A stretch of DNA of 64,000 bases. It comes from Parasphingorhabdus sp. (GTDB lineage: Bacteria > Pseudomonadota > Alphaproteobacteria > Sphingomonadales > Sphingomonadaceae). Below are positions 19,003 through 38,030 of this stretch, piece by piece (within the stretch, counting starts at the first letter, position 1; each line of letters opens with the position of its first letter). The DNA lies in assembly GCA_030373505.1 (NCBI GenBank), contig JAUCYS010000008.1, positions 1 to 64,000 on the forward strand, given 5' to 3'. The notes beneath the pieces are model-generated. The model was not told where the DNA came from. It ran no database searches and was given only the letters and a program-made list of their open reading frames with translations. The position numbers and the translations under genes were made by a program.

Positions 19003-21120
19003 TTAGAAATTCAGGCTAGCCGAAACTATTATGCGGCGACGTTCCCCAACATAGCCCAGGTGGCACTTGGTGCATGTTCCATCCGCACCTGCAGCGCCGA
19101 ACTGCTCCGGCGTGAAGTCGATGAAATAATCCTGGTTAAAGAGGTTGCTGACGCGCGCCGAAATCTTCCAGCGATCATCCGTTTCGGACAAGGCGAAATA
19201 GGCCGATGCGAGCCAATAGCTTGGGTTTATGCTTGAAACGGGCTCGTAGCCAAGTTTCCAGCGGAACTCGTCCTTATAGGAGGCATCGAAATGCAGTTCG
19301 GCCTTGACGCTGTCCGACAACGGAGCGGTATAGGTCGCACCGATAGTGCCGGTCCATTCCGGCGCGTTCGGTGTGTCGCGTCCGGATATGTTCACACCGT
19401 TGAACAGGGCACCCTTATCCCAGTCGGAATGAAGATAGCCGATCGATCCGTTGAGGGTGAGGTTTGGCGTCGGGTTCCAGTTCAGTGATGCTTCGGCACC
19501 ATAGGCTGTCGAATCGCCGATGTTGGCAATGGTTTCGACGAACGCGCCAGATTGCAGCTGCACACGAGTTTCAAACTGGCGGTCCGTATATAGTGTGTAG
19601 AAACCAGCAATCTCGTAATAAAGCGACCTTCCACCGATATTGCCCTTCGAGCCGACCTCGAATGCCCAGGTTTTTTCCGGCTTGTAGGTTCCAGGATCGT
19701 TACTGGTAAGCGCGGCTCTACCCGGCTCGTATCCGCGGCTGACCGAAGCATAAATATTGTTGCCGCCGGCTGTCTGGTAGGACAGGGCCAGCCGGGGCAG
19801 GATCACCGTATCGTTGTTCTGGAAATGCTGGTTGACCGGCGCGAGCTGGGCAACAAACAAGTCAGCGTCATAATCGACATGATAGAGACGCAGGCCGGTC
19901 GTGACTGTCAGGTCACCCAAGCGAAGGTCACTCGACGCAAAGGCGGCAAGATCGGTTTGCTCTGCTTTGAAGTCAAAGAAATCAGGCAATACTATGCCGA
20001 CATCGGCGTTTACCGGGTTTGCTGACAGATTCACATTCTTCAAATTGGCTGCGTACAGGCCAAATATCCAGTCGAATGTCTCATTGCCATTGGAAGACAA
20101 GCGGACTTCCTGGGTCAAGACCTTGGTCGGTCGTGGATCATCGGTGAACAAAATGATTATGGGATTATCTGTGTAATCGACGTCGCCCAGATAATTCTTG
20201 TCCTGCTTGGTGAAGGAGGAGATCCAGTCCAGCTCTATCCCGCCGAAATCATAATTCGCACTGCCGACGAATCCATAAGTTTTGGATTTGACGAAGGGCT
20301 TGGCATTCAGGCTGGCAACATAATTTACATCATCCACAGCGTTCTGGGCACTGGCCAGAATCCCGCTGCCATCATAGGATCGATACCGCCCGGTCAGTTT
20401 GATGGTCAAATCCTCGCTGGGCGTGAAGAGAAGCTGTCCACGAACGGCGAACTCCTCCGTTTCGGAGATATCCGGGATGGTTGGACTGGTCCAGAAACCG
20501 TCATCATGATTATAATAAGCCGAAATGCGCGCCGCGACCTTGTCCTGTGAAAGCGGCGCGTTGACGGCTCCATAGATGTTGCGGTAGCCGTAGCCCCCTG
20601 CCTCTGCCATCACCTCACCGCCGAAATCGAAATTGGGCTCCTTGGGGATGTAGCGGATTGCGCCGCCGATGCTGCTGCCGCCATAGAGGGTGCCCTGCGG
20701 TCCCTTGAGAACCTCGACACGCTCCAGATCCTGAAGGCGCATCGTCTGGTCGGTGAAATTCTGGACGTCGTCGATGTAGAAGCCGACTCCCTGGGTGTTG
20801 CCGAACGCCCCGATGCCGCGCATGACGACATTGGGTGACCGGTCATTGCCGATCTCCATCACGACGCCGGGCGTCTGGCGGCTCAGCGCGGCGATATCCA
20901 CGACGCCGCGGCTTTCCAGCATATCCGCGGACAGGGCAGCAATTGATTGCGGTATATCTTTCAACGCCGAGGACCGTTTTGTCGCGGTCACCACGATCTC
21001 GCCACTGTAGACGGTAGTATCGCTGGGAGGCTGGTCGCCACCCGATTGCTGCGCGACGGCGGGAGCGGCACTCAAACCCAGTGCCGTTCCACAGACAAGC
21101 ATTAACTTCGCTTTCAACAT
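19003..21120 (-). CDS. TonB-dependent outer-membrane receptor
   Basis: A 705-residue receptor. Start 21120 (MLKAKLMLVC) is preferred over 21147 because of the GAGGGGG site. The signal peptide ends at about AVAQQ (residue 25), the TonB box is EIVVTATKR, and the plug contains LKGPQGTLYGGSSIGGAIRY. The barrel ends in SASLNF with a terminal phenylalanine. It has the FyuA/CirA-like architecture common in sphingomonad catabolic clusters and no STN domain. It follows the TetR gene (21212-21817) on the same strand by 91 bases, so expression of regulator and receptor may be linked. The probable role is uptake of the cluster's substrate, possibly a different form from that taken by the receptor at 3466. 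Confidence 0.93.
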   Translation of the reverse strand: MLKAKLMLVCGTALGLSAAPAVAQQSGGDQPPSDTTVYSGEIVVTATKRSSALKDIPQSIAALSADMLESRGVVDIAALSRQTPGVVMEIGNDRSPNVVMRGIGAFGNTQGVGFYIDDVQNFTDQTMRLQDLERVEVLKGPQGTLYGGSSIGGAIRYIPKEPNFDFGGEVMAEAGGYGYRNIYGAVNAPLSQDKVAARISAYYNHDDGFWTSPTIPDISETEEFAVRGQLLFTPSEDLTIKLTGRYRSYDGSGILASAQNAVDDVNYVASLNAKPFVKSKTYGFVGSANYDFGGIELDWISSFTKQDKNYLGDVDYTDNPIIILFTDDPRPTKVLTQEVRLSSNGNETFDWIFGLYAANLKNVNLSANPVNADVGIVLPDFFDFKAEQTDLAAFASSDLRLGDLTVTTGLRLYHVDYDADLFVAQLAPVNQHFQNNDTVILPRLALSYQTAGGNNIYASVSRGYEPGRAALTSNDPGTYKPEKTWAFEVGSKGNIGGRSLYYEIAGFYTLYTDRQFETRVQLQSGAFVETIANIGDSTAYGAEASLNWNPTPNLTLNGSIGYLHSDWDKGALFNGVNISGRDTPNAPEWTGTIGATYTAPLSDSVKAELHFDASYKDEFRWKLGYEPVSSINPSYWLASAYFALSETDDRWKISARVSNLFNQDYFIDFTPEQFGAAGADGTCTKCHLGYVGERRRIIVSASLNF

Positions 21121-21211
21121 TATAGTTTCCCCCTCTTGTATGGCCAAAAATCTATCCAGCCAAAAAATAAGTGAACCTTCCTGCTATAATAAAATTATTT
21201 ATTATTATTTC

Positions 21212-21817: not shown

Positions 21818-22234
21818 TTTTACTGCTCACTCAAAACACAAGATAGCTATTCTCTCGATATAGAAGGCTTGATTACTGCCAAGTAGATCCATCGTAGTAT
21901 CTTATAATGATCGCGTGAGCAATCTATCGAATATGATAGAAGAGAAAAATGCTCGATATAGACCGCCGATACAAGCCAAGGATTTTATGTCTTTCGCGAA
22001 CGTTGATCGGGCGGTGGTTGTGCGGGAAATAGCTGGACCGGCCCCCAATGCGTGCGGTCAAGCCCTAAGGATTGGCAGTTTAACTGTGCAAAGCCTGCCG
22101 TTCGTCGCCATGCTCGCGCCGACCGGTCTGGACTAGGATGCTTTATTCCTCTAACCTCTTCCTTATCGGCCGCCCAAGCCCAAGCAAATTGGCACTCGAC
22201 TGGCCGCAAGGCCGAAAACCATAGGAGTGCCGCG
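21818..22234. other. Divergent promoter region between TetR and LysR genes
   Basis: 417 bases with no convincing gene. A 73-residue frame at 21915-22136 (+) has no ribosome site or recognisable product. The region holds the degenerate dyad listed separately and must contain the promoters of both regulators. Confidence 0.5.
21885..21902. promoter_or_regulatory. Degenerate copy of the 18-bp dyad upstream of tetR
   Basis: AGATCCAT-CG-TAGTATCT keeps 14 of 18 positions of AGATACATTAATGTATCT, including both outer AGAT/ATCT ends. It sits 68 bases upstream of the TetR start. It is weaker than the copies at 10697 and 14713 and could be chance. Confidence 0.3.
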
Positions 22235-23215
22235 ATGATCTCAGATCAATCCATGACCGCGAAGGATAACTCGCATTTGCTTGCCGAGGAGCCGCCGATG
22301 CGACGGCTGAACCTCAATCTCCTGTATCCCCTTCATGCCATTCTGCATTCTCCAACGCTGACCGAAGCTGGGCGCCGGGTAAGCCTCAGCCAGTCTGCCA
22401 TGAGTCATGCGCTGCGCCGGTTGCGCGACCATTTCGGGGATGACCTGGTGGCTCATTCGGGAGGGACTCACCAGTTGACTCCGCTCGGTATGGCATTGCG
22501 CGGGGAGGTGCGGCGGGTGATGAAGGAGGTTGAGGGCACCTTCAATTACGCGCTCGATTTCAATCCCCTCACTGCCGCGCAGACGATCACCATCGCCGCA
22601 CCAGAGGCGATCGAGCAGATGTTGATGGGTCCCGTCCTGCGTGGACTGTCCATCCATGCGCCCGCCCTGTCGGTCAGAATGGTTCCGATCGATGTGGAGG
22701 CACCTCAACGTTCGCTGGATCAGGGTGCCGACCTGCTGTTGCTCCCCGCAGAGTTCGCCATCGATCGGTTGGAGACGCTGCCGATCCTGACCGATCATGC
22801 ATCGTGCATGGTCTGGAACGGGCACACCGAGTTCAGCGATTGCAACGATTTCAGCGAGGAACAATATCGGGCCGCGCGACATATCGTTCCGCTGGGCGAG
22901 GCGACGGCGCTCCTGGCAATCGATGACCTTGGCCAGCATATCCTGAGGGCGCGCAGAATCGGGGCGCGAACGACATCCCAGGCAACACTGCCGGCCGTCG
23001 TAATCGGCAGCGATCTGGTGGCCACGGGCAGCGCCTGGCTGTTCCAATATTATGCGTCGATCATGCCGCTGAGAGTGATCACCGCTCCTTTCCAGAAGAA
23101 GGAAACCGTGTTCGTCGCGCAATGGGAGAATCATCGCCGGTGCGACCCCATGCTGGCCTGGTTCGTCAAGCAGATCGAAGAACATGTCAGCAGCTTTCGC
23201 AACCGGCCGCGATAG
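22235..23215 (+). CDS. LysR-family transcriptional regulator, NodD-like branch
   Basis: A 326-residue LysR regulator with the DNA-binding start LNLNLLYPLHAILHSPTLTE, followed by AAGRRVSLSQSAMSHALRRL-type residues, characteristic of the NodD/PcpR-like branch. The effector domain begins at about residue 110 (AQTITIAAPEAIEQML). Start 22235 is supported by ATAGGAG eight bases upstream, and the in-frame extension to 22052 has no such site. It lies on the same strand immediately ahead of the receptor-transporter-protease operon, separated by 277 bases that contain three hairpins. It is the obvious candidate regulator of that operon, though proximity is the only evidence. Confidence 0.9.
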   Translation: MISDQSMTAKDNSHLLAEEPPMRRLNLNLLYPLHAILHSPTLTEAGRRVSLSQSAMSHALRRLRDHFGDDLVAHSGGTHQLTPLGMALRGEVRRVMKEVEGTFNYALDFNPLTAAQTITIAAPEAIEQMLMGPVLRGLSIHAPALSVRMVPIDVEAPQRSLDQGADLLLLPAEFAIDRLETLPILTDHASCMVWNGHTEFSDCNDFSEEQYRAARHIVPLGEATALLAIDDLGQHILRARRIGARTTSQATLPAVVIGSDLVATGSAWLFQYYASIMPLRVITAPFQKKETVFVAQWENHRRCDPMLAWFVKQIEEHVSSFRNRPR

Positions 23216-23225
23216 CCATCGATAT

Positions 23226-23246
23226 TGTTCATGCCGGCCATGAACA
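23226..23246. repeat. Inverted repeat directly after the LysR stop
   Basis: TGTTCATG-CCGGC-CATGAACA, a perfect 8-bp dyad with a 5-base spacer. No U-tract follows, so it is not a typical terminator. It may be an RNA stabilising hairpin or a binding site upstream of the receptor operon. Confidence 0.4.
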
Positions 23247-23492: not shown

Positions 23493-25826
23493 ATGATGGG
23501 TATTACTTCAAAATCGCGGATTCTATTGGGCGCAGTGAGCGTCGGCACGGTCGTGATCGCCAGCGTAGTCGCGACTGCTCCCGCCTTCGCGCAGGAAGCG
23601 CGTAGCGTAGCTATCAATGTGCCCGCAATGCCGATGGCCAGGGCGCTTCAACAGATCGGAGAACAATCGGGGGCTCCCGTCGCCTTCGATCCAGATGCCG
23701 TAAAGGAGCTGACGTCGCGCCCTGTTAGCAGCGCGGCGTCTGCAGAGGAAGCCCTTCGGGTAGCGACCGAGGGGACAAACCTGACGGTCCTTCGTGCTCC
23801 GAATGGCGGTTTCGACGTCGTTGGCGATATCGTCGTAGTCGCGCGGCGGGACGAAGCCGAAACGAGCCTGCTCGTCCGGCAATCGTCAACATCCGATCGC
23901 AGTGGTCTGGGCCTGCGGGACCAGCCGCGCAACACACAGGTGATTACCGCCAAGGCGATCGAGGAGCAGCAGGCGCTGGACATCACCGATATTCTGCGCA
24001 ACGCTGGCGGCGTTTCGGTGCAGGCTAATAATCCCAACACCGGTGCCAGCTATACGGTGCGCGGTTTCGCTGCGACCGGGCTGGTAAACGGCTTGGCCGG
24101 CGGATCGCAATATGGCGTGCAATCCGGTGCCAACCAGCCGGTCGCGAACATCGAGCGCGTCGAGGTGCTGAAAGGCCCAGATGCGCTGCTGTCCGGCTTC
24201 GGCAATCTAGGCGGCAACGTCAACGTCGTGACGAAAAAGCCAAGTGCCGAAGAACGCCTGGATCTTTCGTTCGACACAGGATCATTCGGGCTCGTGCGCG
24301 GCGTGATCGATGCCAATAACGCAATCACAGCCGACAAGAAGCTGTCGGGCCGCGTCATCGCCAGTGTGCAGACGATGGATCACAATTATGGTGGCTACAG
24401 GGGGACCGATGATTATCTCTTCGCGCCATCGCTTCGGTTCAAGGATCGGTTGACCGATATAGTGATCGGCGCCAGCCTTTCGAAATCGAACGCGGGTATC
24501 GGCGCTTACACGCTTTTCGACAACAAGACCTTCCAGCTCATCGAACGCGATCCATCCATGCCGATCTATTCGCCCGATCAGGGAATCAGCATCGGCACAG
24601 ACCGCTTCTATTTCGATGCGACGCGCAAGATTATACCCGGCATTGAGTTTGTCGCGCGGGGCATGCACGATGAAACCCAGCTGACGCTGCAGGTCTACCA
24701 GGTCGGCTATAACCGGGCTGGCAATCTCACGCTGGGCGTCGGCGGGTCGCAGCAGCAGGGCAAGTCCGATGCGCTCGACAGCTTCTTCCGCTTCAAGGCG
24801 GGTCTGGGCGACGCCGTGAAGGCGACTGTCAATGTCGGCTACAATTACAGCAAGGGCTTTACCAATCAGCGTAGTGAAACGCTCTTTACGGTAGTCAACA
24901 ATCCGCCGCTGGGAGCCAACACCACTCTTCCCGTCATCCCGTTCTCGCCCCTGGGGCCCGTAACCATTCGTATAGAGGGCAAGCAGGAGGGGATATATGG
25001 GCAGGCGCTGATTGAATTTTGGAAGGTCAAGCTGCTGGGTGGCTTGCGCAAGAACTGGTTCGAGACAAGCACGCAGTTCTTATTTCCTGGCGTTCCGCCC
25101 CAACCGATACAGAAGCGGAATGGTGTTTCGCCCAGCGGCGGCATTATCGTCGATGTCACCAACGATCTCTCGGTCTTCGCCAATTATGTGCGCGGCGAAC
25201 AGGCGACCTTCAATCTCGATACTTCTGGAAACTTTCTGCCTAACATCATCACCACCAACAAGGAAGCGGGCGTCAAGCTCGACCTGTTTGGCAAGCGGGC
25301 GACAATCAACGTGTCCTATTTCGACATCCAGCAGGACAACACCATCGTCTTTAACCCGACCATAGGCGGGTTTGAGTCGGGACCGGGCCAGCGCGGACGT
25401 GGCATCGATCTCAACATTGTCGGTCAGGTGATGCCCGGCTGGACCGTGACCGGCTCTTACACCCGGACCAAATATGCGCTGCTGACCACGACGCCCACGC
25501 AAACGACGGTAGCGCGTCAGCCGCGCGATACCTATAGCCTCTATACGAATTATCGCACCCGGATTGCCGATGGCATCACAGGCGGCGCGTCCGTGGGTCT
25601 TTACGGCCGGTCCAGTTCCTTTGCCGACGTTCTTGGGCGGTATGCCGTTCCGGGCGCCCGGCAGATCGACGTCAACGGCTTCGTGACGGTTGCGGGCTTC
25701 GACATCAACCTGGGCATCCGCAATATCTTCGATCGGCGCAACTACAACACGACGAGCGCCTTCAGCTACGTCCCGGTTGACGAACCCCGCAGCGTGCGCT
25801 TGTCTATCAGCAAACGTATCTTCTGA
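23493..25826 (+). CDS. TonB-dependent receptor with N-terminal STN signalling domain (siderophore-receptor type)
   Basis: A 777-residue outer-membrane receptor. The start at 23493 has GAAGGGG upstream; 23496 (second ATG) is equally possible. The signal peptide ends at AFAQ (about residue 34). An STN domain occupies roughly residues 36-110 (INVPAMPMARALQQIGEQSG). A TonB-box-like DIVVVARR follows at 112-119, then a plug with ERVEVLKGPDALLSGFGNLG, and a barrel ending in ISKRIF. STN domains normally talk to a FecR-type anti-sigma factor, yet no fecI/fecR pair is nearby. It is first of six co-directional genes and lies 15 bases before the ABC transporter. The ligand could be a metal chelate or a peptide. 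Confidence 0.93.
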   Translation: MMGITSKSRILLGAVSVGTVVIASVVATAPAFAQEARSVAINVPAMPMARALQQIGEQSGAPVAFDPDAVKELTSRPVSSAASAEEALRVATEGTNLTVLRAPNGGFDVVGDIVVVARRDEAETSLLVRQSSTSDRSGLGLRDQPRNTQVITAKAIEEQQALDITDILRNAGGVSVQANNPNTGASYTVRGFAATGLVNGLAGGSQYGVQSGANQPVANIERVEVLKGPDALLSGFGNLGGNVNVVTKKPSAEERLDLSFDTGSFGLVRGVIDANNAITADKKLSGRVIASVQTMDHNYGGYRGTDDYLFAPSLRFKDRLTDIVIGASLSKSNAGIGAYTLFDNKTFQLIERDPSMPIYSPDQGISIGTDRFYFDATRKIIPGIEFVARGMHDETQLTLQVYQVGYNRAGNLTLGVGGSQQQGKSDALDSFFRFKAGLGDAVKATVNVGYNYSKGFTNQRSETLFTVVNNPPLGANTTLPVIPFSPLGPVTIRIEGKQEGIYGQALIEFWKVKLLGGLRKNWFETSTQFLFPGVPPQPIQKRNGVSPSGGIIVDVTNDLSVFANYVRGEQATFNLDTSGNFLPNIITTNKEAGVKLDLFGKRATINVSYFDIQQDNTIVFNPTIGGFESGPGQRGRGIDLNIVGQVMPGWTVTGSYTRTKYALLTTTPTQTTVARQPRDTYSLYTNYRTRIADGITGGASVGLYGRSSSFADVLGRYAVPGARQIDVNGFVTVAGFDINLGIRNIFDRRNYNTTSAFSYVPVDEPRSVRLSISKRIF

Positions 25827-25841
25827 TAGTCTGCCACCGAT

Positions 25842-27638
25842 ATGATTCCAGCCCCAGCCAATGTAGAGGAGACCCGCCGCGAGGCGGGTCTCCGGTCAAC
25901 GCAGCCCGCCCGCGAACGCTTCGCGCACGCGTGGCGACTGACGACCCGCTACTACATGTCCGAGGACTGGAAGGCCGCGTGGTTTCTGCTGATCCTGTAT
26001 GCGGCGCTTTCCCTTGGTGGGGTCTATACGTTCATATTGTTGAACCAGTGGCAGCGCGACTTTTTCGACTCGATCGAACAGCGCCAGTCCGGCCTGTTCA
26101 TCACGCTCATCTTCACCTTCCTGCTGATCTCGGCATTTCAGGTCGCGGTCATCGTGGTAAACAATCTGGTCAGTTGGACATTGTCGATGCGCTGGCGGAA
26201 CTGGCTGACCAACTGGTACATGGACCGTTGGTTCGCCCGCGACCGGTTTTACGAAATCGAACGTCTGCGCATGATCGACAATCCCGATCAGCGTATCGCG
26301 GAAGACATCAAAAACTTCACTTTAATCACGCAAGGCAATTCCCTGGTCGGGATCGGGGTCGGCATCATCGGAAGCCTGGTCAGTGCGGTCAGCTTTGGCT
26401 ATATTCTTCTGCAGACGTCGGGAGCGTTGGTGATACCAGTCGCTGGCTATCAGATCTCGCTTCCGGGCGGTGATCTCCTTTGGTTCTCGATCGCCTATGT
26501 GCTGTTCGGATCGATCGTCATCACCTGGATCGGCAGACCCTATATCCGTCGCCGGATGCGAGAGCAGCATTATGAGGCCGATTTCCGTACCAATCTCATC
26601 CACGTTCGCAGAAACGGCGAACAGATCGCTTTTTCGCGCACGCAGGACATGGAACGGCGCGGGCTGAGACAGTCCTTCTCCCATATCCGGCGGAACTGGT
26701 ACCGGCTGATGTGGGCCAACATCGGTCTGAGCGCGGGAAGCAGTATCTACGAACGGGTCATGACCGTGATCCCGCTGTTCCTGACCGTGCCGCGATTTTT
26801 CGCCGGGCTGATCAGCTTCGGTCAGGTGATGGCTGCACGCGATGCCTTCACCCAGTTCAGCTCTTCCTTGTCCTATTTTGTCCAGGTCTATCCGGGACTG
26901 GCGGTGCAGATCGCCAATATCAACCGTCTCAAGGCGCTGGATGATGCGATTGACGATGAACGACCGCGCGGCATTGCGTTCCTCCCGGGGGCCGCCGACG
27001 AAGGCATCTCGATTCATGTCAAGAATCTGGAACTGCGCCGTCCCAATGGTGCGCCGCTGATCGCACTGGACGAGTGGAAGGTCTGCGACGGCCAGCGCTG
27101 GGTGATCGAAGGGCCCTCTGGGGCGGGCAAGACAACATTGTTGCGCGCCATCGCCGGGCTGTGGCCCGATGGAGCAGGATCGGTCGCGATGACGCGCCAT
27201 GGCACGGCCATGCTGGTGCCACAGCGTCTTTATCTGCCAATGGGCACGCTGAAGAATGCCATCTGTTTCCCGGACCAGGCCGAGGATCATGATGATGCGA
27301 CTGTCCAGGCGTTGCTGGAAAAGGTTCGGCTCGGCGCGCATGCTGACGATATGCACCAGTTGCGCATGTGGCAGGACGAATTGTCCCCCGGTGAACAGCA
27401 GCGTGTCGCACTCGCTCGTATCCTTCTTCAGCGACCGACCCTGCTCGTGCTGGACGAAGCGACCAGCGCGCTCGATGCGGACAATGCCGCGCATTTCTAT
27501 GAGGCGGTGCAGGAGGCGATACCCGAAGTCACTATGGTCAGCGTCGTGCATAATGAAAAGCTGGCCGCCTATCACACGCATCGTCTGCTAATCGAGGATG
27601 GTTATGCGACGAAATCGATAATCGAGACCGAAGCATGA
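25842..27638 (+). CDS. ABC transporter, fused SbmA/BacA-like membrane domain and ATPase (YddA/FusD type)
   Basis: A 598-residue half-transporter. The membrane domain (about residues 40-350, six helices) is of the SbmA/BacA family, with WRNWLTNWYMDRWFARDRFY and a following NPDQRIAEDI block typical of it. The ATPase follows, with Walker A GPSGAGKT (424-431), signature LSPGEQQ (514-520), Walker B LLVLDEAT (534-541) and the switch histidine His570. Relatives include E. coli YddA, Pectobacterium FusD and mycobacterial Rv1819c, which import or are linked to peptides, proteolysed protein or cobalamin. It lies 15 bases after the receptor and overlaps tldE by four bases, so it is the likely inner-membrane step for whatever the receptor brings in. 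Confidence 0.92.
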   Translation: MIPAPANVEETRREAGLRSTQPARERFAHAWRLTTRYYMSEDWKAAWFLLILYAALSLGGVYTFILLNQWQRDFFDSIEQRQSGLFITLIFTFLLISAFQVAVIVVNNLVSWTLSMRWRNWLTNWYMDRWFARDRFYEIERLRMIDNPDQRIAEDIKNFTLITQGNSLVGIGVGIIGSLVSAVSFGYILLQTSGALVIPVAGYQISLPGGDLLWFSIAYVLFGSIVITWIGRPYIRRRMREQHYEADFRTNLIHVRRNGEQIAFSRTQDMERRGLRQSFSHIRRNWYRLMWANIGLSAGSSIYERVMTVIPLFLTVPRFFAGLISFGQVMAARDAFTQFSSSLSYFVQVYPGLAVQIANINRLKALDDAIDDERPRGIAFLPGAADEGISIHVKNLELRRPNGAPLIALDEWKVCDGQRWVIEGPSGAGKTTLLRAIAGLWPDGAGSVAMTRHGTAMLVPQRLYLPMGTLKNAICFPDQAEDHDDATVQALLEKVRLGAHADDMHQLRMWQDELSPGEQQRVALARILLQRPTLLVLDEATSALDADNAAHFYEAVQEAIPEVTMVSVVHNEKLAAYHTHRLLIEDGYATKSIIETEA

Positions 27639-28984
27639 CCGAATTACTGACCCAGAGCGAAACGAACCTGCGTGATGTTGCCACGCTGGCAGTAGATCTT
27701 GCGGCCCGTCGCGGCGCCAGCGCGCGCGCCTCGGTCCACCATGAAGGCTTTGCCAAGATAGCGGTCCGGGACGGAGAGGTCGAGACGGCGGAACGAAGCG
27801 GCGGCCAGGGGCTCACAATCACCATATTCCGGGACGGCCGACAGGGGGCGGCATCGACCGCCGGGTTCGAGCGCGCGACGATCGAACGGGTGGTGGATGA
27901 GGCGATACTGATCGCAGGGCATGTCCAGCCCGATCCGGATGCCACCATGGCTCCTGCGGACTGGCTCGCCTTCTCTGGCCCTGCACCCGAGCTCTACGCC
28001 GACAGCCCCCGTAGTCCCGATGTCCTGCTCAATGCGGCGCAGGCGATGGACCGCGCGGCGAGCGAAATTGTGCGCTCCGACAGCCAGCTGCGGGCAGGGG
28101 AGTCCGTCGCAGTGGCCACCGAAGGATTATGGGCACTGGCGACCAGCGATGGCTTCTGCCGCAGTGTCCAGCGCTCAAACGATGCACGCTGGTCCGTCAT
28201 GCTGGCGCAGGATCAGGGCGGCAGCACATCGGCATTCTGCCAGTCGCAGGAACGCCGGGTCGATGCGCTGCTTTCCCCCGCCGTTCTTGCCGGCTGTGCC
28301 GCAGATCGGGCACGCCAGATGATCGGTGCGCGCACGATCGGCAGCCGGCGGTGTCCGGTCCTGTTCGACCCGCGGACAGCGGCGACGCTGGTTGGCGAAC
28401 TTGCCGGCGCATTGACCGGTCATGCCCAATATCGCCGGATGAGCTTTCTCCCCGACCCGGTCGGTCGCAGTGTCGCGGCCTCACATCTCGATCTCAGCGA
28501 AGATCCTTTTGAGCCACTCGGGTTGGCCAGCGGCGGCTTCGACAGCGAAGGGATCGCGGGGTCGCAGCGTGCCATCCTTCGGCAGGGAATGGTCGAAGGG
28601 CTGTTCCTGTCTACTTTTTCCGGGCGCAAGATGGGCATGCCCTCGACGGGCAATGCCGATGGCTTCTATAATCTGCGCCTCACCAGTTCGACTGCAAGCG
28701 GCGACTGGCAAGCGATGCTGGCGATGCTAGGCACCGGTCTGGTCGTGACCGAGTTTCAGGGCGGCAAGACCGATCCAGCCAGCGGCAACTGGACCCAGGC
28801 GATCAAGGGCCTGTGGGTCGAGGACGGACAGGTGGTCCATGCCGTCACCGATGTGACACTGGCCAGCAATATGCTCGCGATGCTGACCGGCATTCGCGCA
28901 GTCGGCAGCGATGTCGAACGACAGGGGCCGATCCGTACCGGGTCTATCCTGATCGATGACATGCAGGTGGGAGGTACAGCATGA
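27635..28984 (+). CDS. tldE: TldE/PmbA family subunit of the TldD/TldE metalloprotease
   Basis: A 449-residue PmbA/TldE protein: an N-terminal domain built round VRDGEVETAERSGGQGLTI, a C-terminal beta domain with FDSEGIAGSQRAILRQGMVE, and the family's GNADGFYNL. It lacks a zinc motif, as expected of the non-catalytic partner that pairs with TldD. In E. coli the heterodimer matures microcin B17 and degrades unfolded or small peptides fed through a narrow tunnel. The start overlaps the transporter stop (ATGA at 27635-27638) and its own stop overlaps tldD, so synthesis of the subunits is coupled. This is likely an operon-specific copy dedicated to the imported or produced peptide rather than the housekeeping one. 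Confidence 0.92.
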   Translation: MTELLTQSETNLRDVATLAVDLAARRGASARASVHHEGFAKIAVRDGEVETAERSGGQGLTITIFRDGRQGAASTAGFERATIERVVDEAILIAGHVQPDPDATMAPADWLAFSGPAPELYADSPRSPDVLLNAAQAMDRAASEIVRSDSQLRAGESVAVATEGLWALATSDGFCRSVQRSNDARWSVMLAQDQGGSTSAFCQSQERRVDALLSPAVLAGCAADRARQMIGARTIGSRRCPVLFDPRTAATLVGELAGALTGHAQYRRMSFLPDPVGRSVAASHLDLSEDPFEPLGLASGGFDSEGIAGSQRAILRQGMVEGLFLSTFSGRKMGMPSTGNADGFYNLRLTSSTASGDWQAMLAMLGTGLVVTEFQGGKTDPASGNWTQAIKGLWVEDGQVVHAVTDVTLASNMLAMLTGIRAVGSDVERQGPIRTGSILIDDMQVGGTA

Positions 28985-30441
28985 ACGGCGGTGACCTTGC
29001 GATGGAAATCGCTCGCGACAGGGTGCTCGGCCCAGCCGGGCTGGACGAGGCGGCGATTGCTCGCGCTCTGGGCCAGCTGGCAGGCGGCGGTGCCGATCTG
29101 GCCGACCTGTTCTTCGAGACGACCAATCTGCGCAGCTGGCGGCTGGAGGGGGGGCGCGTCACCAATGGCAGCTTCGCCATGCGTCAGGGCGTCGGCGCGC
29201 GGGCGGCGCATGGCGGCCATGTCAGTTTCGCCCATTCGGCCGATATGCGCGAAGGCGCACTTCAGGACACGGTCGGAGCCGTCCGCGCCTTGGCGGGTCG
29301 CGGCGATACAATGCGTCATCCCCAGGGCATTGCTCTGAACCGGAATGCGGGTCGCCATGACCTCTATCCCCCCATTGACGCGGTTGCGTTGAAGGATGCG
29401 ACCGCATGGATCGCCTTGCTCGAGCGGATCGATCAGCTCGCTCGCGCCCATGATCCGCGGATCGTCCGCATCGACGCCAATGTTCGCGCGCAGGACACGA
29501 CCATCCTGGTCGCCGAGGCCGATGGTCTGCTGGCCGGCGATGTGCGGCCGATGACTATTCTGGCGGTCATGGTCGTCGCCGAGGCAAACGGACGCCGCGC
29601 GCGCGGCCAGGCGGGAATTGGGCGGCGTGCAGGACTGGATGGCTTCGATGCCGCCTCGGTGGAGGCGATGGTCGCGAACGCCGCGCGTATGGCCCTCCAT
29701 AATCTTGACGCCATCCCGGCACCGGTCGGCGAGATGCCGGTGGTGTTGGGGCCGGGCTATCCCGGCGTTCTGTTCCACGAGGCGGTCGGCCACGGGTTGG
29801 AAGGCGATCATCATCGCAAGCATCTGTCTGCCTTTGACGGCAAGGTGGGAGAGCGCATCGCCGCGCCCGGTGTAACGGTGATAGACGATGGCGGCATCGC
29901 CGGACAGCTCGGCTCTCTGGGGATCGATGACGAAGGCACTGCGCCGGATCGCACCGTTCTGGTGGAGGACGGCGTGCTGACCGGCCTGATGCAGGATCGC
30001 CTCAACGCCGGCCTGATGAACGCGCGGTCGACCGGCAATGGTCGGCGTCAATCCTATGCCCATCTTCCGATGCCGCGTATGACCAATACCTTTCTGGCGA
30101 ACGGAGAGGCCGATCCGGCCGACATCATCGCGTCTATTGATCGCGGTATCTATGCAACCGAATTCGACGGCGGACAGGTCGATATTGTTACCGGTCGCTT
30201 CAACTTCACCACGATCGAGGCCTGGCTTGTCGAAAAGGGCAAGCTCGTCGCGCCCGTAACGGGGGCGACCCTGATTGGCGTCGGCCATGAAGCTCTGCGC
30301 CACATCTCGATGGTTGGCAACGACCTCGCTTTCGACAACGGCATCGCCACTTGCGGCAAGCAGGGCCAGACGCTGAACGTCAGCGTCGGACAGCCGACCC
30401 TCCGCATTGATCGGATGATGGTCGGCGGACAGGCCAGTTGA
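28981..30441 (+). CDS. tldD: TldD, catalytic zinc subunit of the TldD/TldE protease
   Basis: A 486-residue TldD. The zinc motif HExxxH is FHEAVGHG (His266, Glu267, His271). The third ligand is Cys458, in the conserved context LAFDNGIATCGKQGQ. The end TLRIDRMMVGG is also typical. It is a cytoplasmic aminopeptidase-like metalloprotease that trims unstructured peptides in a chamber formed with TldE. It overlaps tldE by four bases, and the thioredoxin gene follows 42 bases later. All catalytic elements are intact, so the enzyme should be active. Its placement after an SbmA-like transporter links peptide import with hydrolysis. Alternatively the pair could process a RiPP precursor, but no precursor or cyclase is seen nearby. 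Confidence 0.95.
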   Translation: MNGGDLAMEIARDRVLGPAGLDEAAIARALGQLAGGGADLADLFFETTNLRSWRLEGGRVTNGSFAMRQGVGARAAHGGHVSFAHSADMREGALQDTVGAVRALAGRGDTMRHPQGIALNRNAGRHDLYPPIDAVALKDATAWIALLERIDQLARAHDPRIVRIDANVRAQDTTILVAEADGLLAGDVRPMTILAVMVVAEANGRRARGQAGIGRRAGLDGFDAASVEAMVANAARMALHNLDAIPAPVGEMPVVLGPGYPGVLFHEAVGHGLEGDHHRKHLSAFDGKVGERIAAPGVTVIDDGGIAGQLGSLGIDDEGTAPDRTVLVEDGVLTGLMQDRLNAGLMNARSTGNGRRQSYAHLPMPRMTNTFLANGEADPADIIASIDRGIYATEFDGGQVDIVTGRFNFTTIEAWLVEKGKLVAPVTGATLIGVGHEALRHISMVGNDLAFDNGIATCGKQGQTLNVSVGQPTLRIDRMMVGGQAS

Positions 30442-30483
30442 TTACCCCCGACTCCCCCATTTTCTCTAGAAGGATGATCCAAC

Positions 30484-30807
30484 ATGCGTAACGCGACTGA
30501 GCAGGATTTTGACGACATTGTGATGAAGAACAATAAGCCGGTGCTTGTCGACTTCTGGGCGCCCTGGTGCGCACCGTGCAAGGCGCTGGCCCCTACGCTG
30601 GACGAGCTCGCAGAGGAATATGCCGAGGAGATGGAGATCGTGAAGGTCGATATTGAGGCCCATCCCGCCCTGGCGGCCCGCTTTGGTGTGCGCGGCATTC
30701 CGTTGCTGATGGTCGTCCGGGATGGCGAAGAGCAGGCGCGTACCGTCGGCACGATCTCGCGCAGCAGGCTGGATGCTTTCGTTGAAGCCAATGTGGGAAC
30801 AGAATGA
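30484..30807 (+). CDS. Thioredoxin with a WCAPC active site
   Basis: A 107-residue cytoplasmic thioredoxin, with no signal peptide. The redox site is [12 protein letters not shown] (Cys29, Cys32), with alanine where canonical thioredoxin 1 has glycine, and the cis-proline is Pro73 (RGIPLL). An AGAAGGA site lies upstream. Its stop overlaps the next start (ATGA at 30804-30807), so it is coupled to the unknown protein. It is probably not the housekeeping trxA. Within this operon it would reduce disulfides in an imported peptide before TldD/TldE digestion, or keep Cys458 of TldD reduced. Confidence 0.93.
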
Positions 30808-31682
30808 TGAACGATATCGCCTTTCTGGGGGATCCGGCAGTCAAGGCTCAGGCGCTCGCGCGTCTGCGCAGCCACATCGCCGCCGGGACATTCATGATCT
30901 TTCCGGCATGGCAAGACGGTTTGGCCAATGTCATTGGTGCGCTTGTCGAAGCCGATGACAAACAGGCCTTTGCGGAGCAATATGGTTATCCAATTGCATT
31001 GGCGACAGCATTGGAAATGATCGTCAACGCGTTCAAGACTCTCCCGGCTGCCCAGGAGTTTGTCGAAGCTCTGCTGGAGCGTACTCCTGTCGGAGCCGAT
31101 CTCTCCGGGGTCGTGTCGCAGGCCCTGGTCTTCCTCCTCGAACGACCGGAAATCGTCGCGCTTGTCGCCCCGCATGCTCAAGTTGAGCAATGTCGCCAAG
31201 CTGTTCTAGGCCTGCACCAGCGCGTGATCGCTGGCGAGGAGCCTGATCGAAAGGAATGGAAGTCGATACGTCTGGCCTCCGTGGCCGCAAGTGACATGAT
31301 CGTCGATGATGCCAGTGCGCATATGGCCAGCCTGATCATCGAATCGGCGGCATGGCCCGCGTCTATGCGCAGTGTATTGCATGACACGCTTGGCGCTTGT
31401 GGTCGCCTGGAGAGCCAACAGTTGATGGACGCGATCGGTTGGACGGAAGCGGATGAGAGCCGTGTTTTCAAGATCCGGGACAAGGCGGAAGGCGACGGGC
31501 GTATGGCCGAACTGGAGGGGCTGGACCGGGTGCTCGCCCTGCTCGATCACGACGACCCGGCACTGGCACGCGGATTCCGGGAGCGGCTCGACCAGTTCAA
31601 AAAGATGGGGGAAGTGTACCGAACCGTTGGGTGGAAGATCGTTGACTTCATCGAACAGGCGCCGGATCCCGCAGGAATGTGA
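30804..31682 (+). CDS. Hypothetical protein, last gene of the receptor-transporter-TldDE-thioredoxin operon
   Basis: A 292-residue protein I do not recognise. It is largely helical, without signal peptide or membrane helix, and has few cysteines. The first half ([20 protein letters not shown] and [20 protein letters not shown]) and second half ([20 protein letters not shown]) suggest repeated helical hairpins. The end ([20 protein letters not shown]) is amphipathic. Its start codon pair ATGATG overlaps the thioredoxin stop, which implies stoichiometric co-expression with the thioredoxin. It may be a thioredoxin client, a chaperone-like adaptor handing peptide to TldD/E, or a sensor. No enzymatic motif is visible. 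Confidence 0.75.
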
Positions 31683-31743: not shown

Positions 31744-32490
31744 CTAGCTCAGCAGCTTTTCGATCATTGCCTGGCTGTACCCTGCGGTGACGCCGCCATC
31801 GATCGGTAGCAGCTGGCCGGTGATATAGGCGGAACCGTCATTGGCCAGGAATTCGACGAGCTTGGCCACTTCGTCGGCTTCGCCTACCCGGCCCAACGGG
31901 CAGGCAATTTCGACGAGCGCCACTTCGGGGTTTCCCGGCTCCAGCATTTCCGACCAGATGCTGCCCGGCGCGATGGCGTTGACCCGGATTCGGCGCGCGG
32001 CAAGCTCCAGCGCGGCGCTTTTGCTGAGGGAAACCACAGCAGCCTTGGTTGCGGAATATTGCGCATATCCCGGCAAATGTATGATCGCCGCGACCGAAGC
32101 GGTGTTCACGATGGAGCCGCCATCTTTCATATGGGCGGGGCCGAGGCGAAGGCCATTGTAGACGGCGATGACATTAAGCTCGATCAGATCGCGAAAGCCC
32201 TGCGCATCCTGTTCCTCGATCCCCTCGCCGATATTTTCGCCGCCGGCGTTGTTGAACAGAAGATCAATCTTGCCGAGCTCCGCTTCTGTCCGGGCCAGCG
32301 CATTGGCGAGCGCGGATTCGTCGGTCACATCCGCGCATAGCGGCAGAATATTGGGGGTCTCGCCGGCGTTGGCCATATCGCGCCGTCCCACGGCGGCGAC
32401 GCGCCAGCCGGCGCTGGCCAGCCGAAGGGCTGTGGCCCTGCCGATCCCGGAGGTGCCTCCGGTAATGAATGCGGTACGATGGGTGCTCAT
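31744..32490 (-). CDS. Short-chain dehydrogenase/reductase (SDR)
   Basis: A 248-residue classical SDR: cofactor loop FITGGTSGIGRATALRLASA, NNAGGENIG, active site TASVAA with YSATK, and the end GSAYITGQLLPIDGG. The start overlaps the stop of the upstream FAD oxidase by four bases (ATGA at 32487-32490), so it is coupled to it. It would oxidise or reduce a hydroxy or keto group of the oxidase product, with NAD(H) or NADP(H). Convergent with the unknown gene of the peptide operon, it closes a cupin-oxidase-SDR operon read leftwards. Confidence 0.9.
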   Translation of the reverse strand: MSTHRTAFITGGTSGIGRATALRLASAGWRVAAVGRRDMANAGETPNILPLCADVTDESALANALARTEAELGKIDLLFNNAGGENIGEGIEEQDAQGFRDLIELNVIAVYNGLRLGPAHMKDGGSIVNTASVAAIIHLPGYAQYSATKAAVVSLSKSAALELAARRIRVNAIAPGSIWSEMLEPGNPEVALVEIACPLGRVGEADEVAKLVEFLANDGSAYITGQLLPIDGGVTAGYSQAMIEKLLS

Positions 32491-33845
32491 GCTTCGGCCT
32501 CCGTAATGGTTTCAACACTCTCTCTGGCGATCTTGCGGTCAAGCCGCCGGTCCTTCCCCGTCAGAAAGGACAGCAGTCCCTGGACCGCCAGCCAGCGAAA
32601 GGGTTCCGGCGGCAAGGGCAGAATGCGCCGGGACAGAATATCCAATATACCGCTGCCTTTACCGACCATGCGATCGGCCATGGCGGCGCCCATTGTCGAG
32701 GCCTGGGCGATGCCATGGCCATTATAGCCCATGCTGTAATGGATATTGCCTTCCCCCTTGACCGTGCCGCAGACCGGCAGGAAGTCGAGCACCAGGGCGA
32801 TCCATCCGCTCCAGTAATTTTCTATGCCGACATCTGCGAGCTCGGGAAAGCGCACCCGGAACATGTTTTCGAGCCGTGCAAAGGTCTCGGGATGATCGGC
32901 CGGCGGCAATGAACTGCCATAGCCGTAGCGGACATATTTGGAGCCGCCGAGCAAACGATTGTCGGCGGTCAGCCGGAAGCTTTCGAGACTCTCATGCGCC
33001 GTATACAGGCCTTCGCGGCCGGACCAGCCAAGCCGTTCGAGCTGTGCGCCGGACAGCGGCGGCGTGCTGAACAGGGAAACCGCCAGCGGCGCCAGCTTGC
33101 TGCGGAACATGTTGAGGGATACCGGCGTGAAGGCATTTGTGGCGAGCAGCACCTGTCGCGCCCGTATCCGCCGCGCCTGCGACCTGAGGACCAAGGTCTC
33201 GCCGTGCTCGATATGATCGACCGGAGTCTGTTCATGGATCTGCACACCCGAATCGAGCGCAGCGCGGCGCAGGCCCATGACATATTTGCCCGGATGAAGA
33301 TGGCCGCCACCGGTTTCATGGATGCCGAACAGAAAGGCGGACGGCAGCGAGCGAGCGCGCATTTCGGCTTCATCCAGAAAATCCGCGTGCAGACCGTGGC
33401 GAGCAGCCAGCTCGGCGGACTTGGCCAGTATCGCGCGCTGGTCGGGATGCACGCCGGCGATGATATTGCCGCTCGCCCGATAGTCGCAGGCGATATTCCG
33501 CTCGGCGATCGTCCGCTCGGCGAAGGCGACTGCGTCCTCGCCGAAGCGGATTAGATCCAGCCCCCGCTTTTCACCATATAGCTTGATGCAGCTGAAAATA
33601 TCCTTGCCGATGGTCGGGGTCAGATGACCCGCGTTGCGACCGCTTGCGCCAAAGCCGCAAAATTCCTGCTCGAGAAGGACGACGTCATGGCCCAGCTCGC
33701 GCAAACGGAGTGCGGCTGACAGGCCCGTATAGCCGCCGCCTATGATCGCGATTTCGGCGTCGATATCATGATCCGGCGGCGGACAGAGATCGGAGGGCCG
33801 GTCTACCCATATGCTGACGGGAGCAAACTTGCCGCCGATGGTCAC
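32487..33845 (-). CDS. FAD-dependent amine oxidase, gamma-glutamylputrescine oxidase (PuuB)-like
   Basis: A 452-residue flavoprotein of the D-amino-acid-oxidase superfamily. The FAD loop is AEIAIIGGGYTGLSAALRLR, followed by GFGASGRNAGHL, as in PuuB and related secondary-amine oxidases. SFRLTADNRLLGGSKYV and YSMGYNGHGIAQ match the PuuB C-terminal region. It begins with GTG at 33845, two bases after the cupin stop, and overlaps the SDR downstream. Likely reaction: O2-dependent oxidation of an amine to imine/aldehyde with H2O2. Together with the Tat-exported amine oxidase nearby it marks this block as amine catabolism. The exact substrate is open. Confidence 0.87.
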   Translation of the reverse strand: MTIGGKFAPVSIWVDRPSDLCPPPDHDIDAEIAIIGGGYTGLSAALRLRELGHDVVLLEQEFCGFGASGRNAGHLTPTIGKDIFSCIKLYGEKRGLDLIRFGEDAVAFAERTIAERNIACDYRASGNIIAGVHPDQRAILAKSAELAARHGLHADFLDEAEMRARSLPSAFLFGIHETGGGHLHPGKYVMGLRRAALDSGVQIHEQTPVDHIEHGETLVLRSQARRIRARQVLLATNAFTPVSLNMFRSKLAPLAVSLFSTPPLSGAQLERLGWSGREGLYTAHESLESFRLTADNRLLGGSKYVRYGYGSSLPPADHPETFARLENMFRVRFPELADVGIENYWSGWIALVLDFLPVCGTVKGEGNIHYSMGYNGHGIAQASTMGAAMADRMVGKGSGILDILSRRILPLPPEPFRWLAVQGLLSFLTGKDRRLDRKIARESVETITEAEA

Positions 33846-33847
33846 GA

Positions 33848-34324
33848 TCAGGCCTCAAGCAGCGCGCCGAAAATCGCCTCGGCTTCTGCGGCGGACTTGC
33901 CTTCCAGCATGGCAAAAAAGTCGAAATCGAGATCGGATGTGCTGCCATCGTCGAAATGGTTGCGCAGCAGCCGATGCTCGCCTTCCGGGGCAAGAAGGAC
34001 GATGAACAGTTCAGCTCCATCTTCGCTGGTCGGCGTGTGATCGCTGCCGGCTCCTTCATAGGCAACGTCGCCGGCCGCAAATTCTCCCTCGTCATAGGCC
34101 CAGCGCCCCGACAGCGTGATCGCGCAGGCTTCGGCGAAATGATAATGGCGCGGCGCCTCCGAATTGGGGCCGAATCGCACCTTGAACATCACCCTGGCCT
34201 TTTTGCGATCCACCTTGATGACCTTGATTGCCATATTGCGTGTCCCGGCGACCGCGTCGATCGGAATCCACTCCAGATCATCACGGATGATTTCGGTTAC
34301 TATGGGCTTGGTGGCGACGTTCAT
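33848..34324 (-). CDS. Cupin-domain protein
   Basis: A 158-residue single cupin with the metal motif EAPRHYHFAEACAITLSG and second motif AYEGAGSDHTPTSEDGAE. It is of the same ChrR / dihydroxyacetophenone-dioxygenase-like group as the cupin at 6549-6998 but clearly diverged. It starts at ATG 34324 behind an AGGAGAG site and is the first gene of the cupin-oxidase-SDR operon, divergent from the receptor at 34579. It could be an oxygenase acting before the amine oxidase or a small-molecule-binding protein. Histidine ligands are present, so metal binding is expected. Confidence 0.78.
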   Translation of the reverse strand: MNVATKPIVTEIIRDDLEWIPIDAVAGTRNMAIKVIKVDRKKARVMFKVRFGPNSEAPRHYHFAEACAITLSGRWAYDEGEFAAGDVAYEGAGSDHTPTSEDGAELFIVLLAPEGEHRLLRNHFDDGSTSDLDFDFFAMLEGKSAAEAEAIFGALLEA

Positions 34325-34414
34325 ATGGCTCTCCTTGGTGCAGGCCGCGATGACAGCCCTTGCTGGGAACCATATAGGCCCGGACGCTCAAGCCGAGACT
34401 ATCCTGACATGACA

Positions 34415-34435
34415 ATGGATGGTCTATGGATGTCA
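34415..34435. promoter_or_regulatory. Direct repeats in the cupin/receptor divergent promoter (AraC-site candidate)
   Basis: ATGGATG occurs at 34415-34421 and again at 34426-34432, an 11-base period (about one helical turn) as AraC-type monomers like to bind. The overlapping GTCTATGGATGTCA (34422-34435) has a near match, GTCTATCGCTTGTCA, at 37949-37963 between the AraC gene and the amine oxidase gene. Confidence 0.4.
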
Positions 34436-34578
34436 ATTTTGCTGCGCACCATGACGCGTGAAAACAATACAATGTCATTTCAAAACCTCTTCAGAATCGG
34501 TCGCACGGTTAGTCAGATAGCGAGCCGAACCCGTTTCTGAGTAACGGGAAGCGAAAATAATCCATCGGGGGTGCGCAT

Positions 34579-36852: not shown

Positions 36853-36875
36853 CAGCGGCCGTCGCGAGCGGGAGA

Positions 36876-37919
36876 CTAGGCTTTGTCGGCCCGGTGCCGC
36901 TCGCGATAGGCGATCGGGGTCAGGCCGGTCGAGCGCTTGAACGCCTTGATGAAGGCGCTGGGATCGGAGAAGCCAAGGAAATAGGAGATTTCCTTGACCT
37001 CGGTTGACGTGTCTTCGAGATAGCGTCTGGCTTCCTCCTCGCGGACCTGGCTGATCAGATCGGAAAAGCTGACGCCTTGCGCGTCGAGCCGCCGCTGCAG
37101 GGTGCGTTGCTGGACGGCGAGCAGCTGGCTTATCGCAGCCAGGCTTGGCGGCTTGCCGGAGAGGCGTACCCGGACCAGCTCTTTCACCGAATCAACCAGG
37201 GTCTGCGTCTTGGGCAATTCCTCGATCAGATCCTCCAGATGCTTGCTGATCACATAATAGAGGCGATGATCCGCCGCCAGATTTTCCAGATCGCCCGCCC
37301 GGCGTTCGTAGTGGAGCGAGTTGACGTCGGCATCGAAGATCGGGCGAACGCCGAGATATTTTTCGTAAGCCGAGGTCTCGGCGACCTGCGGGTGCATGAA
37401 ACTGGCATGGACCGGGGCAGCAAGACCCCCGCTCATCCGGCGGATTTGGTTCGCGGTGAAAGAGAGGCTGAATTCCGCATCCTGATCACGATGGCGGACT
37501 GCGGGATGGAGAATGGCATATTCGATACGCATGAAATCCCGGTCGCGCACCGCCTTTGCATGGGTTCCGCTCTGCCATGGCGGCAGAAACCGTTCGAGCG
37601 CGCTGAGACATTCCCAGACCGTCGGTGCATTGAGCAAAACAAAACCCAGAGCGCCCCAGTTTGCCGGATCCTGCTCGAACCCGAGCTGCAATCCTGTCGA
37701 AGCTATGCCGGTTTCTTCCGCAACCAGCTTCATGAGCTCGGTGAAGGAGGACAGCTGCATCGACGCATAGGGATCCCGGACCGAGTCCAGATCGAGACCG
37801 AGCTGTCGAAACAGCGGCTGCGGTTCAATGCCGTGACGCTGCAGAAAGGATGTCAGGTTGGCTGCGGCCGCCGCTCGCACGAACGGCGCGGGCTCATAGG
37901 GTGCGCGTGGAGGTTCCAT
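36876..37919 (-). CDS. AraC-family transcriptional regulator (OruR-like)
   Basis: A 347-residue AraC regulator with an N-terminal ligand domain of the arabinose-binding / OruR type (about residues 20-210) and a C-terminal double helix-turn-helix (EISYFLGFSDPSAFIKAFKR, then STGLTPIAYRERH). Start 37919 (MEPPRAPYEPAPF) is preferred over 37964, which would add a cysteine-rich extension without family support. It is divergent from the amine oxidase and convergent with the receptor. OruR-like proteins often respond to ornithine or related amines, which suits the neighbouring amine oxidases. Repeats at 34415-34435 and 37949-37963 are candidate sites. Confidence 0.92.
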   Translation of the reverse strand: MEPPRAPYEPAPFVRAAAAANLTSFLQRHGIEPQPLFRQLGLDLDSVRDPYASMQLSSFTELMKLVAEETGIASTGLQLGFEQDPANWGALGFVLLNAPTVWECLSALERFLPPWQSGTHAKAVRDRDFMRIEYAILHPAVRHRDQDAEFSLSFTANQIRRMSGGLAAPVHASFMHPQVAETSAYEKYLGVRPIFDADVNSLHYERRAGDLENLAADHRLYYVISKHLEDLIEELPKTQTLVDSVKELVRVRLSGKPPSLAAISQLLAVQQRTLQRRLDAQGVSFSDLISQVREEEARRYLEDTSTEVKEISYFLGFSDPSAFIKAFKRSTGLTPIAYRERHRADKA

Positions 37920-38030
37920 GCAGCGGATATAACAGCATAGCGTGCGAAGTCTATCGCTTGTCATCTGAAAGCTATTGGCTCCTCGGCTGCCGATCTAGGA
38001 AAGGAACCGGAAACAGAGCGGAGATAGACG

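Follow-up and report, generated by a model that had tools for sequence, protein, structure and literature searches.

A receptor, transporter, TldD/E and thioredoxin operon of Parasphingorhabdus belongs to a modular cassette that may import and digest peptides

The window analyzed here, a stretch of 64,000 nucleotides from Parasphingorhabdus sp. (GenBank assembly GCA_030373505.1, contig JAUCYS010000008.1, positions 1 to 64,000), carries between positions 23493 and 31682 an operon for a TonB-dependent receptor (TBDT), an ATP-binding cassette (ABC) half-transporter, TldE, TldD, a thioredoxin and a protein of no known family, which we call ORF7. The operon is one form of a cassette with a constant core, consisting of receptor, ABC transporter, thioredoxin and ORF7, to which different peptidases are joined and which appears to be patchily distributed across Proteobacteria. 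We think it fairly probable that this cassette is a TonB-dependent system for peptide import and digestion, in which a disulfide- or cysteine-containing peptide is taken up, reduced and degraded for its cysteine.

Since a search with ORF7 does not select for a receptor, transporter, thioredoxin or peptidase, the company that its gene keeps is informative. The window, eight loci found with TldE and 16 found with ORF7 make up 25 distinct cassettes (the window, L010-L017, L054/L078, L055, L007, L008, L056, L079, L080, L051, L048, L026, L050, L049, L028, L027, L052 and L053), with the duplicates L076 (= L011), L077 (= L013) and L078 (= L054) removed. A thioredoxin is encoded beside or fused to ORF7 in 25/25, a TonB receptor is present in the locus in 25/25 and a YddA-type ABC gene is present in 24/25, the sequence of the remaining locus (L027) not having been fetched far enough. 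The peptidase is exchanged: 15 cassettes carry TldE/TldD, five an M16 peptidase, three an S9 peptidase and one (L051) M3 alone, with none seen in L048, for which 19 of the 23.7 kb of its contig were read. Another peptidase thus stands in for TldE/TldD in nine cassettes, and M3 also occurs alongside other peptidases, giving 14 cassettes with M3 in total, plus a remnant in L016. An HxxEH motif was found in the M16 protein of L056 and in both M16 copies of L053. The regulators vary as well (LysR, MocR-like or FecI/FecR-like), and genes for TonB, ExbB and ExbD accompany L028, L027, L052 and L053, while those for ExbB and ExbD accompany L026. A variant of the transporter was seen in L007 (5887-9431), where two tandem ABC half-transporters in place of one suggest a heterodimer.

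In overlapping genome samples, the ORF7 tracer was positive in 3/147 genomes of relatives, 2/385 of the class, 7/398 of the phylum, 5/200 of the family of genome G727, 3/197 of the order of genome G724 and 7/396 of the order of the window organism. These counts include the center genome and are lower bounds, the samples having been drawn from larger groups; per genome, at most 6 (class), 6 (phylum), 11 (G727 family), 12 (G724 order) and 6 (window order) first-look candidates were scored. Among 72,556 plasmid records, 3 and 2 were positive. At least two cassettes lie on plasmids (L053-L056); this and the patchy occurrence suggest that the cassette spreads horizontally. One of these, L053, is a 74.9-kb Klebsiella pneumoniae plasmid that carries two M16 proteases, two ABC genes and a thioredoxin-ORF7 fusion, as well as TonB-ExbD-ExbB and FecR genes; the whole is embedded among insertion sequences, not far from sul1.

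Among close relatives, the gene order seen in the window is conserved. With TldE as the query against genome contigs, eight loci were found (74 to 86% identity in the best segment), a lower bound, since the scan reaches close relatives only. They belong to Sphingosinicella microcystinivorans, Novosphingobium mathurense, N. hassiacum, Novosphingobium sp. 17-62-19, Sphingomonas populi, S. yabuuchiae, Sphingobium sp. CECT 9361 and an alphaproteobacterial metagenome-assembled genome. The order LysR-TBDT-ABC-TldE-TldD-thioredoxin-ORF7 is identical in all eight (at least four named genera) and is therefore not peculiar to this genome; as the six window genes also have ratios of nonsynonymous to synonymous substitution rates (dN/dS) of 0.05 to 0.20 against L010, L012 and L017, the arrangement is not due to chance. 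Beyond ORF7, all eight loci carry more genes: a Cds1-like gene in each, an M3 peptidase in seven and thioredoxin reductase in L010 and L015. In the eighth, L016, only a remnant of the M3 gene (13182-13295) is left, flanked by ORF7 and the Cds1-like gene; the window is thus not the only case of gene loss in the 3' part of the cassette. The elements of the unit in the window are as follows.

22052 to 23215, plus strand: LysR-family regulator (ORF as listed; Pfam HTH_1 and LysR_substrate), first gene of the unit in the eight loci found with TldE
23228 to 23244, no strand: dyad TTCATG-N5-CATGAA in the LysR-TBDT gap, a putative LysR-type operator
23493 to 25826, plus strand: TonB-dependent receptor with Pfam Plug and TonB barrel domains, a signal-peptide-like start (by eye) and a weak STN domain
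25842 to 27638, plus strand: ABC half-transporter with ABC_membrane_2, SbmA_BacA and ABC_tran domains, a YddA/Rv1819c homologue
27635 to 28984, plus strand: TldE (PmbA) subunit with PmbA_TldD domains, signal peptide not seen
28981 to 30441, plus strand: TldD catalytic subunit with PmbA_TldD domains, HExxxH and C-terminal Cys kept
30484 to 30807, plus strand: thioredoxin (Pfam Thioredoxin) with a CAPC active site, signal peptide not seen
30804 to 31682, plus strand: ORF7, 292 amino acids, predicted to be all-helical, without known family; marker of the system

By open reading frame (ORF) listing, translation and Pfam, the six genes from TBDT to ORF7 form an intact operon on the plus strand. A sequence-only reading of this DNA had already described these six co-directional genes, and its coordinates proved real, as did the overlaps of four bases that it gave (27635, 28981 and 30804). 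The same holds for the SbmA/BacA-like membrane domain of the transporter (SbmA_BacA, 94.9 bits; Pfam cut-off, 24) and the completeness of the protease, with PmbA_TldD domains in both subunits and with HEAVGH and the C-terminal Cys of TldD aligned to the E. coli protein (5nj5, E = 2e-128), so that the features of a TldD/TldE protease (both subunits, HExxxH and the metal-binding Cys in TldD) can be recognized in the window. The STN domain assigned to the receptor is visible but falls under the Pfam cut-off (23.4 versus 28.4 bits).

The LysR gene was missing from that earlier gene list but is part of the conserved unit. Homology of its ORF starts at residue 54 to 62 in five of the eight loci and at residue 7 to 29 in the other three, which leaves the true start unsure, possibly near 22214-22238. 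Downstream of it, TCAT...CATGAA is invariant in nine of nine aligned LysR-TBDT gaps, with a spacing of 4 or 5 between TCATG and CATGA, and we regard the dyad as a candidate LysR-type operator.

The TldD/E pair of the cassette is an extra one beside the housekeeping genes. PF01523 was found in all 30 genomes searched (including that of the window organism), with two copies in 25, one in three, three in the window organism itself and four in G097. By comparison, all ten genomes checked that carry a TldDE cassette (those of the eight loci found with TldE, G060 and G724) have four PF01523 genes, and G067 and G727, whose cassettes (M16 or S9) are without TldDE, have two. The pair in the window is thus not the sole tldDE copy, although the second set is incomplete in the assembly: apart from the cassette pair, it contains one PmbA gene on another contig, and a 12-kb region around the housekeeping tldD of a congeneric genome matched only the cassette tldD plus two short pieces (187 and 36 bases). 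Given the completeness of the assembly (88%), failure to assemble the housekeeping tldD is more likely than its loss. In a TldD tree, the cassette copies of sphingomonads, 12 in number, group in a single clade (100/100) that excludes seven housekeeping rows; the L027, L028 and L052 copies are less surely placed, 47% of bootstrap trees having a split that puts them together with the sphingomonad cassette copies, with long branches. The four PF01523 genes of G097 were considered as a further cassette and rejected, since by eye the TldD pair adjoins MoxR-like and DUF58-like genes. This pair (L032, 721-11817, minus strand) is of another kind and resembles an operon of Stenotrophomonas, described in passages of PMC7688217 as encoding two TldD proteins and a MoxR ATPase.

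ORF7 was described as an unknown protein in the sequence-only reading and has kept that status: Pfam gave no match for it at E ≤ 0.001, nor at E ≤ 1, and NCBIfam gave a single match at 16.6 of 282 bits. In the wider family, Pfam searches at E ≤ 1 with eight proteins (six of the cassette ORF7 family plus L029 and L030) yielded six weak matches, the best with an E value of 0.012 and all under cut-off, and PHROGs searches at E ≤ 0.1 with seven proteins yielded two weak matches. The predicted fold is all-helical (predicted local distance difference test [pLDDT] score of 84.6, versus 62 to 70 for the other four models), and a Foldseek search of the PDB with it returned 246 matches at E ≤ 10, none of them at E ≤ 0.001. 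Eight close members are 52 to 79% identical to the window protein, and five columns (D9, G60, P62, G96 and W151, counted from the Met at 30807) are invariant when distant members are included. Thioredoxin and ORF7 form a single chain in L028, L027, L052 and L053, and in L026 ORF7 is joined to a prolyl-oligopeptidase domain of family S9. If such fusions reflect contacts between the proteins, ORF7 should touch both thioredoxin and peptidase, as a presumed partner or adaptor.

The cysteine theme comes from genes that accompany the core in relatives. A Cds1-like gene is present in 11/25 cassettes (and as a 33-codon piece in L080), and thioredoxin reductase (TrxB) is present in 6/25, with those of L049 and L050 scoring over the TIGR01292 cut-off. 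The Cds1-like protein of L008 reaches 557.7 bits on NF052478 (NCBIfam L-cysteine desulfhydrase Cds1; cut-off, 600), and the M3 proteins of L050 and L051 reach 652 and 603 bits on oligopeptidase A (NCBIfam; cut-off, 927). One cassette, L049, combines a NifS-like desulfurase and a hydroxyacylglutathione-hydrolase-like part in one ORF, both under cut-off. Because relatives add an oligopeptidase, thioredoxin reductase and a Cds1-like enzyme, a peptide with disulfides or cysteine, from which cysteine would be gained, is the likeliest substrate. Cds1 of Mycobacterium tuberculosis is described as an H2S-producing enzyme in part of PMC8389258, and passages of PMC12731061 report that nodule cysteine-rich peptides of plants are degraded by HrrP, an M16 protease encoded on a rhizobial plasmid; by analogy with the latter, cysteine-rich plant peptides may be one class of substrate.

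On this basis, the TonB receptor would carry the peptide over the outer membrane and the YddA/SbmA-type ABC protein would carry it over the inner membrane, after which the cassette thioredoxin together with ORF7, its presumed partner or adaptor, would reduce and open it in the cytoplasm. TldD/E would then degrade the opened peptide, a task that S9, M3 or a probably periplasmic M16 peptidase would take over in other lineages; in M16 cassettes, the first cut may be periplasmic. No signal peptide was seen by eye in TldE, TldD, thioredoxin or ORF7, and digestion in the window system is therefore probably cytoplasmic. A reducing step fits the proposal, made in passages of PMC5810440, that TldD/E takes unfolded polypeptide through a narrow channel. 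In full cassettes, the freed cysteine would pass to the Cds1-like enzyme, and the window copy, as a reduced version, would hand fragments to general peptidases. The earlier suggestion of peptide import followed by TldD/E cleavage with a dedicated thioredoxin is thus supported as a reading of the locus, having withstood the comparisons of gene order and tldDE copies; the genes present, their order and conservation, the fusions and the peptidase exchange are observed, and the mechanism, including transport direction, substrate and the part played by ORF7, is inferred. A bolder version, which we put forward tentatively and with somewhat less than even confidence, is that ORF7 founds a new family that docks thioredoxin to interchangeable peptidases within an undescribed class of reductive peptide piracy, in which imported disulfide peptides (for instance, cysteine-rich ones from plants or microbes) would be reduced, fed to a protease and stripped for cysteine, yielding hydrogen sulfide, pyruvate and ammonia.

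Several observations weigh against this interpretation. Neither TrxB nor M3 nor Cds1-like genes adjoin the window operon, and close copies of M3 or Cds1 are absent from the 88%-complete assembly (best identities, 32% and 24%), so that the cysteine theme is borrowed from relatives; moreover, a full Cds1-like gene is lacking, within the stretch read, in 14/25 cassettes. Much of the naming of Cds1, M3, S9 and NifS proteins depends on NCBIfam scores under the curated cut-off. ORF7-like matches also occur outside any recognized cassette, seven in number (E = 2e-8 to 9e-4): L029, L030, a Pantoea plasmid, G1415, G546, G272 and a second one in G997. The surroundings of four (L029, L030, L081 and L057) were inspected. 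In L029 (6510-10536), a 933-amino-acid receptor-like ORF is followed by an ORF7-like gene of 309 amino acids, with no match to the thioredoxin, ABC protein or peptidase of the cassette set, and L030 (9121-9783, minus strand) encodes a 220-amino-acid protein with an ORF7-like N-terminal stretch (E = 7e-6) in a stretch without cassette genes. Finally, the best solved relatives of the window receptor are siderophore receptors (for alcaligin and pyoverdine).

This last point favors piracy of a peptide siderophore or metallophore, in which TldD/E would release the metal by cleaving an imported, metal-loaded peptide. The receptor scores 191.5 bits on TIGR01783 (NCBIfam), below the cut-off of 223.5, and FecI- and FecR-like genes accompany L028, L027, L052 and L053, with a FecR-like gene at L051. 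We nevertheless consider this unlikely, as it leaves unexplained the recognized neighbors of the core, namely, peptidases, thioredoxin reductase and cysteine enzymes (Fur sites were not searched for, and metal reductases and metal-binding proteins were not systematically surveyed). Uptake of cobalamin or another small molecule was suggested by the transporter, whose best solved chain is 6tqe (E = 6e-71), which we take to be Rv1819c, but the receptor is far from BtuB (TIGR01779, 43.7 versus 599.7 bits) and the peptidases and thioredoxin would play no part, making this the least credible of the alternatives.

Two further readings start from the known activities of TldD/E. According to passages of PMC5810440, it acts on the microcin B17 precursor, and the operon might accordingly confer resistance by importing and destroying a peptide antibiotic; the S9 protein of L050 has matches far below cut-off to Dpp5 (93.9 bits; cut-off, 900) and to a lasso isopeptidase model (69.9 bits; cut-off, 400). 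Yet an energized receptor would increase exposure, the Cds1-like gene of relatives suits feeding better than defense, and a PADLOC search with five of the six proteins matched the ABC protein alone, four times (mad3 best, at E = 2e-21), which we read as generic ATPase similarity. We therefore regard resistance as improbable. Production of a ribosomally synthesized and post-translationally modified peptide (RiPP), with TldD/E, a leader protease in the parts of PMC5810440 and PMC10885120 consulted, trimming the leader, the ABC protein exporting the product and the receptor taking it back, is less plausible still. A modifying enzyme is absent among the six genes, no small ORF is kept in the LysR-TBDT gap of nine loci, and the other gaps of the window operon are shorter than 50 bases (those after ORF7 in relatives were not examined); in addition, the exchange of TldD/E with M16, S9 and M3 peptidases fits degradation.

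Among described systems, the import-and-digest reading comes closest to Fus/PqqL, in which, according to passages of PMC6793856, a TonB receptor is genetically coupled to a protease, with a sporadic occurrence in Proteobacteria, and some FusA homologues adjoin other proteases. The analogy, drawn already in the sequence-only reading with the Fus/YddAB-PqqL loci, holds for the M16 protease of 5/25 cassettes, for the receptor-protease coupling and for the ABC protein, which is a homologue of E. coli YddA (33% identity over 517 amino acids, E = 6e-84). It does not hold for the receptor: none of the 41 solved-structure matches listed at E ≤ 0.001 was named FusA or YddB, the best blastp E value against E. 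coli YddB was 4.1, and nothing was found that ties the receptor to ferredoxin or iron. Instead, the thioredoxin reductase and Cds1-like genes found in relatives indicate peptides with cysteine or disulfides. The window operon also lacks a periplasmic M16 protease (FusC/PqqL) and has TldD/E without a signal peptide in its place, and the cassette adds thioredoxin and ORF7, with Cds1-like genes in relatives; the words "thioredoxin," "TldD" and "cysteine" have no occurrences in the main text of PMC6793856. With a receptor outside the FusA/YddB type and another kind of protease, the operon is not classed here as a Fus system, though it would work like one. Import of pyrroloquinoline quinone was considered and dropped: the PqqU of PMC12124388, in the part consulted, is NP_415968.1, and YddB is NP_416012.1.

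Other likenesses are narrower. Compared with E. coli TldD/TldE, the cassette keeps both subunits and the catalytic HExxxH and Cys, but its copy is an extra one placed in a transport operon. SbmA lacks an ATPase domain; the cassette ABC protein shares the SbmA_BacA membrane domain and YddA/Rv1819c homology but has its own ATPase domain and sits with a receptor and peptidases. Lasso peptide isopeptidase/receptor pairs consist of a TonB receptor with an S9-type hydrolase, a combination also present in 3/25 cassettes, where S9 is, however, one of several exchangeable peptidases and matches the isopeptidase model far below cut-off. We know of no receptor-ABC-thioredoxin core for HrrP, which, as an accessory plasmid-borne peptidase acting on cysteine-rich peptides (PMC12731061, in part), resembles what M16 cassettes might be. 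No published description of this cassette was recognized in literature searches limited to open-licence papers.

Little is known of how Gram-negative bacteria feed on intact or modified peptides, and most TonB receptors are, to our knowledge, without a known substrate. With the cassette, a path from the receptor to the final product can be put to the test, and ORF7 provides a marker gene for finding the cassette elsewhere and a new protein family where thioredoxin would meet proteases. The exchange of peptidases is a natural experiment in which several unrelated types may do one job, and dedicated TldD/E pairs gain a setting outside toxin and leader processing.

In the window itself, the genes next downstream of the operon, encoding a short-chain dehydrogenase/reductase (SDR), a flavin adenine dinucleotide (FAD) oxidoreductase and a cupin (Pfam), are on the opposite strand, and none of the three adjoins the cassette in the eight loci found with TldE. 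They are grouped at 31744-39554 with a TonB receptor, an AraC regulator and a flavin amine oxidase, perhaps as an amine-use cluster. Three further TonB-dependent receptors were identified with Pfam (19003-21147, minus strand; 34579-36852, plus strand; 55043-57484, plus strand), of which the first two are only 25 to 28% identical to the cassette receptor set in matching parts. A 1,205-amino-acid protein with POR and DUF6537 domains (Pfam), encoded at 50296-53913 on the plus strand, is presumably an enzyme of the indolepyruvate-ferredoxin-oxidoreductase type.

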